Translations under genes and position numbers: made by a program
Part shown: positions 26,406 through 58,674 of the stretch, one piece after another
Numbering within the stretch: the first letter of the stretch is position 1
How the letters are laid out: each line of letters opens with the position of its first letter
From: Cyanobacterium sp. T60_A2020_053
GTDB lineage: Bacteria > Cyanobacteriota > Cyanobacteriia > Cyanobacteriales > Cyanobacteriaceae
DNA length: 64,000 nt
Assembly: GCA_015272165.1 (NCBI GenBank)
Contig: JACYMF010000088.1
Location: forward strand, 1-64,000
Direction: 5' to 3'
Notes under the pieces: model-generated
Told to the model about the DNA's origin: nothing
What the model saw: only the letters and a program-made list of their open reading frames with translations
The model's database searches: none

Positions 26406-26487
26406 GGGCGGATGGCGAAATTGGTAGACGCACCACACTCAAAATGTGGCGGCTTCGGTCGTGCGAGTTCGAGTCTCGCTCTGCCCA
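26406..26487 (+). tRNA. tRNA-Leu (anticodon CAA)
   Basis: 82 nt without CCA. Acceptor GGGCGGA pairs with TCTGCCC (one G-T pair); D-loop GGTAGACG; anticodon stem CCACA/TGTGG with loop CTCAAAA, anticodon CAA reading UUG; a long variable arm (CGGCTTCGGTCG) typical of class II tRNA; T-arm GAGTTCGAGTCTC. No intron. Confidence 0.96.
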
Positions 26488-26614
26488 TTGTCTAGTTTTT
26501 CTAACTATTTTTAGCTTCTTCGGCTCTGTTGCCCCACACTGTATTTTTCAACAAAAACACCCACAAAATCAGTGTGGGATGAATTGCCGTCCAGATTTAT
26601 GATATAATTCTATT

Positions 26615-26905
26615 AATCGGTGCTAGAGAGATGTAGCCGTAGTCGGCGAACTCCCCGTTGTAGAAAGGCTAGAGACTACCTATCAATTAATTAATTGATA
26701 GCCCCAATGCTTCACTGTTCCTCTTGTAAGCAATAAGCGTAAATGAACAAAGGCGGGTGAAAAACTAAAAAATTAAAAGACCTTCGGAACGAGGGATAAA
26801 GCCTACCGCCTGAAAGTAAGACTCGTTACTTCTCGGAGTAAAAAGCATTTCTTTGGGTAGGAAGCCTACACCATAATCTTTGATTTGGTGTATGGTAGTT
26901 CACCT
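26615..26905 (+). mobile_element. Right-end remnant of an IS200/IS605-family element
   Basis: At 26627-26698 one frame reads RDVAVVGELPVVERLETTY and a stop, which looks like the last residues of a TnpB protein; no upstream part of tnpB remains. Behind it comes about 200 bases of structured sequence and near the end the perfect hairpin TACACCA-t-AATC-ttt-GATT-TGGTGTA (26867-26892), followed by GGTAGTTCAC. Subterminal hairpins mark the right ends of IS200/IS605 elements, and in TnpB elements this zone encodes the guide (omega/re) RNA. Neither tnpA nor an intact tnpB is present. Lies 128 bases past tRNA-Leu. Confidence 0.6.
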
Positions 26906-27001
26906 CAATTGTCATAAATAGGGTATTGACAGAATAAGAAAAAGATCATATAATCGCAATCAAAGATTAATGTAGCGGATATAACATTTTAACCGTACAG
27001 C

Positions 27002-30740: not shown

Positions 30741-32628
30741 ATGCCTTACTTTATGCATAAGCGCGCCTACGCTGACACTTTTGGACCAACTACGGGGGAT
30801 AAAATTCGCCTCGCTGATACGGAGTTAATTATTGAAGTTGAAAGGGATTATACGGTTTACGGTGATGAGGTAAAATTTGGTGGCGGTAAGGTGATTCGGG
30901 ATGGTATGGGGCAATCGGGCTTTTCTAGGGCGGAGGGCGCTGTGGATACTGTCATAACTAATGCGTTAATCCTCGATTGGTGAGGTATTGTTAAGGCAGA
31001 TATTGGTATTAAAGACGGCAAAATTTTTAAAATTGGTAAGGCAGGAAACCCTGAGATACAGCCTAATGTGGATATAATTATCGGACCTAGTACGGAAGCC
31101 ATTGCTGGAGAAGGAATGATTTTAACGGCTGGAGGCATTGATAGTCATATCCATTTTATTTGCCCTCAACAGATTAAAACTGCCCTTGCTTCGGGCATAA
31201 CCACTATGCTAGCAGGGCGTTTTCATTCTCAAAAATGTTAGTTTCTCAAACTAGCCAATAATCTGAAATTCAGAGGTTTTTAACTACTAATAAATCAATT
31301 AATAGTAAAAAATCCTCCTGTCTCCCTGTCAACCTGTCTTCTTGTCAAAAACAAATCAATTTTGATCCTGACTTTGAAAACACCCTGCTATGCTAGGGGG
31401 GGGTACAGGTCCAGCCACTGGTACTAATGCGACTACTTGCACCCCCGGAGAGTGGCACATGGCGCGAATGTTGGAATCGGCTGATGCTTTCCCGATGAAT
31501 TTGGGTTTTTTAGGTAAGGGTAATAGTAGTCAACCGGAGGGATTGGTTGAACAGGTTGAGGCGGGCGCTATGGGTTTAAAACTCCATGAGGATTGGGGGA
31601 CAAATCCTTGGACTATTGACACTTGTTTAAATGTGGCGGATCAATATGATGTACAGGTGGCGATTCATACTGATACTCTTAATGAGGCTGGTTTTGTGGA
31701 AGAAACTATTAATGCTTTTCAAAATCGAGTCATACATACTTATCATACGGAGGGCGCTGGAGGGGGACACGCGCCGGATATTATTCGGGTGTGTGGAGAA
31801 ATGAATGTGTTGCCGTCTTCGACTAATCCCACCAGACCTTATACTGTTAATACTTTGGATGAGCATTTGGATATGTTGATGGTGTGCCATCATTTAGATA
31901 AAAATATTCCTGAAGATGTGGCTTTTGCTGAGTCACGCATTCGCCGAGAAACCATTGCTGCTGAGGATATTTTGCATGATTTGGGCGCTTTTAGTATGAT
32001 TGCTTCTGATTCTCAGGCAATGGGAAGGGTAGGGGAAACTATTTTGCGCACTTGGCAGACTGCGCACAAAATGAAGGTACAAAGGGGAGTTTTAGGGGAA
32101 GGTAAGGCGGATAATTTTCGGGCAAAAAGATATATTGCTAAATATACGATTAATCCTGCCATTACTCACGGTATTAGTGATTATGTGGGATCGATTGAAG
32201 AGGGTAAGTTGGCTGATTTGGTGTTGTGGAAACCAGCTTTTTTTGGGGTTAAGCCTGAGTTGGTATTGAAGGGGGGCGCTATTGCTTTGGCACAAATGGG
32301 AGATGCTAATGCGAGTATTCCTACTCCTCAACCGATTTTACCTCGTGGGATGTTTGCTAGTTTTGGAGGGGCGCTGGCTTCTACTTCTTTGACTTTTGTA
32401 TCGGGGAGGGCGCTGGATTTAGATATTAAGGGTAAGTTGGGTTTGAAAAAAGCCACTGTAGCGGTTAGTAATACTCGTAATTTGAGTAAAAGGGATATGA
32501 AGTTAAATGATTATACTCCTACTATGGAAGTTGATCCAGAAACCTATGAGGTGCGCGCTGATGGCGTATTATTAACCTGTGAACCAGCAACGGTTTTACC
32601 TATGGCGCAACGATATTTCTTGTTTTAA
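30741..32628 (+). pseudogene. ureC: Urease alpha subunit, disrupted
   Basis: The two parts together cover the whole urease alpha chain: [16 protein letters not shown] at the start, [16 protein letters not shown] (nickel-binding His pair), [13 protein letters not shown] (the carboxylated Lys), [16 protein letters not shown] and [17 protein letters not shown]. Two lesions are seen. A TGA at 30981-30983 stands where homologues have Trp (ILDW-stop-GIVKAD). A 177-bp MITE at 31212-31388, with duplicated TATGCTA, splits the TTML/GGGTG segment. Removing the element and one duplication restores the frame exactly. No other ure genes are adjacent. Urease cannot be made from this locus. Confidence 0.93.
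31212..31388 (+). mobile_element. 177-bp MITE, copy 2 (inside ureC)
   Basis: Ends GCAGGGCGTTTTCA and TGAAAACACCCTGC; 7-bp target duplication TATGCTA at 31205-31211 and 31389-31395. No coding capacity. Orientation is opposite to copy 1, only 734 bp away, with almost identical sequence, so the insertions are recent. Confidence 0.95.
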
Positions 32629-58403: not shown

Positions 58404-58439
58404 AATGATCTGGGGTGGAGGGCGCTGGTGAAAGATTAA

Positions 58440-58560
58440 CCGTTGTACCGTTTTACTTCAGTTTATGACCTGGAAAACCAGGGGGAAGCCAACGTTTCTG
58501 TTTCTGTTTCCGAGTACGCGCTCGGTTTACTACCACTAGAAATCTATCGGTATCCGAATC
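58440..58560. ncRNA. Candidate small RNA or leader with two hairpins
   Basis: CCTGGAAAACCAGG (58469-58482) and CCGAGTACGCGCTCGG (58510-58525) are two perfect short hairpins separated by a GTTTCTGTTTCTGTTTC tract, in a gene-free gap (58404-58674) with otherwise AT-rich sequence. Function and strand not known. Confidence 0.3.
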
Positions 58561-58674
58561 AATCAAGTTATAGATCAAAAAACTTGATAAGCAGTCACCA
58601 ATACAATAGCTAATCTATTTATATATAATAGTCAAATTTTTCCATAATCTCAACCTCAGCACTAAATTTTCGGG

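Follow-up and report, generated by a model that had tools for sequence, protein, structure and literature searches.

The window analysed here, a stretch of 64,000 nucleotides corresponding to contig C88 of the source genome (G000), contains a zone of structured DNA between a tRNA-Leu gene (26406-26487) and a gene encoding a DUF3155 protein. As a rule, a TnpB guide RNA is released from the transcript of tnpB. The original prediction, drawn at 26615-26905, had described it as the orphan right end of a TnpB element beside tRNA-Leu, a remnant retaining the last TnpB codons, a perfect subterminal hairpin, and possibly a guide RNA served in trans.

Borders and copies of the element

The comparison within G000 revealed that positions 26510-26903 are identical in three places, namely in the window (copy 1) and on contigs C92 and C20, and on either side the identity breaks off at almost the same position. 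Copy 2 interrupts an open reading frame; deleting 389 bp and leaving one TTTAG reopens the frame across the joint, and paralogues of the host gene continue directly beyond the TTTAG position. This empty joint is crossed uninterrupted by homologous genes in G000 (paralogues), G184, G117, G083, G133, G041, and G064. The reopened frame and the uninterrupted homologues therefore define an element spanning 26515-26903, inserted 3′ of TTTAG without duplication of the target. For copy 1, no empty site could be demonstrated; tRNA-Leu and the DUF3155 gene are adjacent in no compared genome except G000. The features of the element and its borders are as follows.

26510-26514, + strand: TTTAG insertion target, by analogy also the TAM, 5′ of the element; a single TTTAG is kept in all three copies
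26515-26903, + strand: complete non-autonomous element of 389 bp, in three identical copies whose borders are sharp; copy 2 has an exact empty site
26533-26578, + strand: left-end subterminal hairpin CCCACACTG ... CAGTGTGGG, read from the sequence
26865-26895, + strand: right-end subterminal hairpin (26865-26873 with 26886-26895), equivalent to stem 4 of the RNA; 8 of 9 pairs changed on both sides
26926-26954: perfect consensus promoter TTGACA-17-TATAAT between the element and the DUF3155 gene, from a promoter scan

No protein gene fits inside the 389 bp, and Rfam contained no known family for the element, either at the gathering threshold or at E values up to 1. Subterminal hairpins at both ends and insertion 3′ of a fixed short target without duplication characterize it, near certainly, as a mobile, non-autonomous element of the IS605 type (IS200/IS605). 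The subterminal hairpin reported earlier is real and belongs to the right end; the element is complete, and its left end was missed by the coordinates first proposed, which begin inside the element. Additionally, a 55-bp piece at the end of contig C69 (L012), which diverges from the element sequence soon after the middle palindrome, is likely a fourth, broken copy.

It had also been proposed that the zone could have been domesticated as a leader of the DUF3155 gene, and the element does end 113 bp upstream of the start of that gene. This role is the least probable of those considered, since the DUF3155 gene has its own perfect promoter, located between the element and the gene, the tRNA-Leu/DUF3155 arrangement is confined to G000 among the compared genomes, and the other copies of the element lie at unrelated places.

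Kinship with tnpB-carrying elements

No tnpB was found within 2 kb upstream of the window element. In the related genome G064, a TnpB frame of 418 open codons (408 aa from the ATG) is intact in three copies, and its flanks are homologous to both ends of the element, covering positions 1-79 on the left and 271-394 on the right, both at approximately 70% identity. The encoded protein (P0002) matches ISDra2 TnpB (8bf8) over nearly its full length with an E value of 3.4e-74 and contains two Pfam domains, OrfB_IS605 and Cas12f1-like_TNB. The full tnpB element L064, an IS1341-type (tnpB-only) element of the same cyanobacterial family, has a left end matched by positions 1-79 of the window element; L064 resembles the window element in its left end, in the TTTAG ahead of it, and in its right-end scaffold, and differs in having tnpB, a longer central stem, and no 5′ module; the homologous RNA in L064 does overlap or follow tnpB in cis. 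Full-length relatives with the same end, on which the earlier interpretation depended, are thus present in G064, and these homologous ends indicate that the window element is a tnpB-less, IS605-type derivative resembling the palindrome-associated transposable elements (PATEs).

The last TnpB codons were recognized correctly at the outset: positions 26780-26860 are still open in the tnpB frame as TFGTRDKAYRLKVRLVTSRSKKHFFG followed by a stop, corresponding to the real TnpB tail ending in SGTGDKAYCPDVRRGRGGRKKSTTPLSVG and a stop. Read-through of this frame as a product was considered and rejected, the frame being broken in relatives such as L040, which has an early in-frame stop. The readable tail is what a decayed remnant of a tnpB element would leave, and yet such decay is very improbable, being contradicted by the complete, identical, multiple copies and by diverged full-length or near-full-length relatives (78-89% identity) in G117, G184, G159, and G064. 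Such diverged tnpB-less copies in other genomes also indicate that the tnpB-less form is too old to stem from a single deletion in this strain. The feature is therefore an intact tnpB-less mobile element and not a remnant. An order-wide DNA search, in which the best three candidates per genome were scored, gave matches in at least 88 of 195 genomes, many of them to the right end only, an end common to tnpB elements.

An omegaRNA-type scaffold with a pseudoknot

The right part of the element was modelled as an RNA (model R1, 26780-26903) using 21 sequences, of which 20 lack tnpB. The resulting fold comprises a hairpin, H1, the long-range helices H2 and H2b enclosing H3, and a terminal hairpin in last place, with the following landmarks.

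26780-26903, + strand: omegaRNA-type scaffold, 124 nt (H1, H2, H2b, H3, terminal hairpin, pseudoknot), from covariation in 21 sequences and the ISDra2 order of parts
26786-26790, + strand: H1 loop GGAAC, whose last four bases are the 5′ pseudoknot strand GAAC (26787-26790), pairing with GTTC at 26898-26901
26898-26901, + strand: GTTC, the 3′ pseudoknot strand just ahead of the guide, from pairing and covariation

With the pseudoknot included, the model has 36 pairs, 91.6% of cells paired, and 19 of the 36 pairs changed on both sides, counts that kinship among the sequences inflates; the covariation score was 0.424, compared with 0.201 for shuffled and at most 0.113 for slid alignments. H2b was recovered independently by RNAalifold, and H3, with 67.5% paired, is the weak point of the scaffold. 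Structure had been expected between 26700 and 26905, and this part of the expectation is borne out by covariation, while the folding energy, as weak evidence, adds little: single-sequence z values were -1.9 (26700-26905), -2.4 (26765-26903), and +0.6 (26616-26760). The energies are only mildly unusual; the real evidence for an RNA is the covariation.

The pseudoknot could be examined across families. Among 44 tnpB-less RNAs (35 R1 matches and nine from other scaffold families, all with a parsable H1 loop; ten further tnpB-less matches with an unparsable loop were excluded, and L013, L113, L134, and L135 were grouped as tnpB-linked though no tnpB was found upstream of them), 175 of 176 pseudoknot pairs are formable, compared with a shuffled mean of 150, and 0 of 2000 shuffles reach 175. 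The combinations occurring are GAAC/GTTC, GGAC/GTTC, GAAT/GTTC, GAAG/CTTC, GACA/TGTC, and GGCG/CGTC, and the sole failing RNA, L070 (GAAC/GCTC), misses one pair. Such pairing would serve no apparent purpose in DNA excision.

The omegaRNA (reRNA) of ISDra2 TnpB from Deinococcus radiodurans has the same arrangement: stems 1 to 4 follow one another and lead into the guide, and a pseudoknot joins bases between the two strands of stem 1 to the final bases ahead of the guide, -6G to -2A (PMC10097598). The cryo-EM study of ISDra2 describes this pseudoknot as conserved among Cas12 guide RNAs (PMC10097598). In the window element, GTTC is followed by A, C, and the flank, so that the guide would begin at 26904. 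Stem order and the pseudoknot ahead of the guide thus agree with a TnpB omegaRNA, as the first reading of this zone had supposed, and the pattern of sequence change makes it likely that selection maintains the RNA as a guide of the TnpB type. In contrast to ISDra2, the window element has no tnpB in cis, bears its own -10 motif, and carries a conserved 5′ module replacing the tnpB coding sequence.

A presumed promoter motif and exchangeable 5′ modules

Two features precede the scaffold within the element.

26600-26608, + strand: extended -10 motif TGATATAAT, the presumed promoter of the RNA; a TATAAT-like hexamer stands at the equivalent place in 9 of 9 type-A elements
26622-26703, + strand: type-A 5′ RNA module (model R2), with a helix (26639-26644/26674-26679), a hairpin (26680-26701), and a possible TAG/CTA pseudoknot

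The -10 hexamer is exactly TATAAT in seven of the nine type-A elements, the others having TACGAT and TATGAT; a promoter scan found no -35 partner for TGATATAAT. The type-A helix is changed on both sides (GTAGTC/GACTAC, GTGGTG/CACCAC, GTGGCA/TGTCAC), and the covariation of the whole structure was 0.318, compared with 0.157 after shuffling. In the TAGCC/GGCTA pseudoknot candidate of the module, TAG/CTA is invariant, and the outer two pairs fail in 3/13 and 4/13 sequences.

The 78 R1 matches in 85 fetched sources were classified, leaving out L051, L137, and L138. A TnpB match lies upstream of 26 of the 75 classified matches, and none was found for 49 within 2 kb or up to the edge of the fetched DNA, a ratio that is not a census because some of the sources had been collected using a query that lacks tnpB. 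A 5′ module was present in 36 of the 49 tnpB-less matches: nine of type A, as in the window element, 23 of type B, which is a GGCGAAAACCAAGCC-type hairpin, and four of type C; the remaining 13 had no recognised module. A class-wide search with R2 gave matches in at least 7 of 291 genomes under strict filters, with the best 15 candidates per genome scored. R2 found the type-A module in none of 18 TnpB loci searched; a short letter pattern for the module matched 3 of 26 tnpB-linked loci, where R2 finds no module.

L073 (type B) and L076 (type A) have the left end and promoter region in common and differ in the module, and in L046, L182-L185, L191-L193, and L196, genomes of another order included, type A precedes different scaffolds whose ends differ as well. 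This swap and these other scaffolds indicate that modules are exchanged as units. In a related type-A family, L190 and L197 have internal deletions that retain the ends and have lost most of the scaffold.

These observations bear on a simpler explanation, that of a plain PATE in which the DNA hairpins alone matter, for recognition by TnpA, and the interior is a passenger. The ends are typical, and gene-less PATEs are described as common in Haloquadratum (PMC3119063), but H1, H2b, and the 5′ module covary away from the ends, G-U pairs included, and the pseudoknot covaries across several end types; we consider this explanation unlikely. A comparably doubtful possibility, and a slightly fainter one, is a decoy or regulator RNA that titrates or represses TnpB instead of guiding it, with the 5′ module as its regulatory part. 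RNA located 5′ of the scaffold is reported to be dispensable for cutting by ISDra2 (PMC10097598), so that the conserved 5′ modules go beyond what ISDra2-type cutting needs, as a regulator might; in one ortholog, a region of the TnpB mRNA is reported to inhibit cleavage (PMC10278001). Against this, the pre-guide pseudoknot and the scaffold are retained as in active guides. In the main interpretation, set out below, the module has a probable role in protecting, processing, or regulating a transcript that is now without a preceding ORF.

A probable guide RNA for TnpB in trans

The interpretation that accounts best for the element, and which we hold to be probable from comparative sequence data, is that a non-autonomous IS200/IS605-type (PATE-like) element encodes a free-standing guide RNA that serves TnpB supplied in trans; service by TnpB proteins elsewhere, part of the original prediction, is accordingly the favoured, though predicted, reading. 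The RNA plausibly works in trans with TnpB. The element would have lost tnpB and retained the guide-RNA gene, its internal -10 motif would drive transcription, a TnpB of the ISDra2-like clade would load the RNA, and the flank beyond the right end would act as the guide.

26904-26919, + strand: presumed guide, in flanking DNA outside the element; position by analogy with the ISDra2 reRNA (PMC8612924)

In copy 1 this presumed guide begins CTCAATTGTC at 26904. In the ISDra2 model, the donor joint created by excision consists of target and flank, reRNA-loaded TnpB cuts it, and an intact copy serves as template for repair (PMC8612924), a scheme from which an RNA-only element could gain the same benefit using TnpB made elsewhere. 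Here, excision would leave a joint of TTTAG plus guide, TnpB would cut that joint (predicted target TTTAG+CTCAATTGTCATAAAT), and repair from the sister copy would restore the element, with mobility supplied in trans by a Y1 TnpA. The genome of origin itself contains no perfect TAM-plus-guide match for copy 1; for copy 2, a paralogue on contig C8 (L174) has TTTAG followed by a 14/16 match to the guide.

Regarding the helpers, tnpB-less RNAs occur together with long open tnpB frames with homologous scaffolds in G064, G117, G159, G184, and G195, frames in which simple patterns left some catalytic motifs unmatched. In G000, no intact TnpB of the P0002 clade was found, only a fossil tnpB-type right end on contig C30. 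P0001, a G000 TnpB with a long open frame, is 57% identical to P0002, and its own right end is unmatched by R1; the L022 TnpB frame of G000 is also long and open. No canonical Y1 TnpA was found in G000, where two weak matches were obtained; strong matches (E below 1e-20) occur in 10 of 15 genomes of the family and 0 in G000. That the three copies are identical suggests a recent presence of helpers. The fossil right end (C30:41430-41559, L013) lies behind a tnpB-like tail and directly behind another coding frame, and over its final 50 bp it does not differ from the window element, which suggests a helper element in G000 recently.

On a broader scale, we see about an even chance that cyanobacteria host widespread nuclease-less transposons whose sole product is a promoter-driven guide RNA with exchangeable 5′ modules, type A being common to scaffolds of several TnpB types in two orders, and that these hijack the TnpB of other elements to defend their insertion sites. 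If true, RNA-only elements would represent an intermediate stage linking cis-encoded omegaRNAs to separate Cas12 guide RNAs, and would be natural parasites on an RNA-guided nuclease. Such elements would provide free-standing natural TnpB guides, making TnpB action in trans for other elements directly testable.

Related systems and other observations

Trans-acting omegaRNAs are reportedly mentioned by Altae-Tran in 2021, and omegaRNA-bearing PATEs are said to appear in Meers 2023; both have a guide RNA separate from the nuclease gene, as in this element, and we know of no modular 5′ domains in either. A search of titles and abstract openings in the open literature gave no paper on tnpB-less omegaRNA-encoding elements in cyanobacteria. 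The PATEs of Haloquadratum are, like the window element, IS605-derived, with near-terminal palindromes and no target duplication, and too short for a transposase; the window element differs in its conserved guide-RNA gene, of which the available portion of that account describes none (PMC3119063).

A GC-rich small repeat (GACGGGGC ... GCCCC) is inserted in or beside palindromic ends at L032:1454-1500, at the left end of L073, and in L064 close to the 3′ end of tnpB. It resembles the SMR-A repeats of Haloquadratum, which have PATE palindromes as their targets (PMC3119063). Another short repeat family of G000 is present in three copies (L023, L024, and L025, at C113:75840, C58:117744, and C56:43520), and its sole open frame is a TnpB zinc-finger tail. 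Elsewhere in the window, Rfam identified two further RNAs.

30897-31182, - strand: 5_ureB_sRNA, antisense in the urease gene region
58433-58615, - strand: 6S RNA
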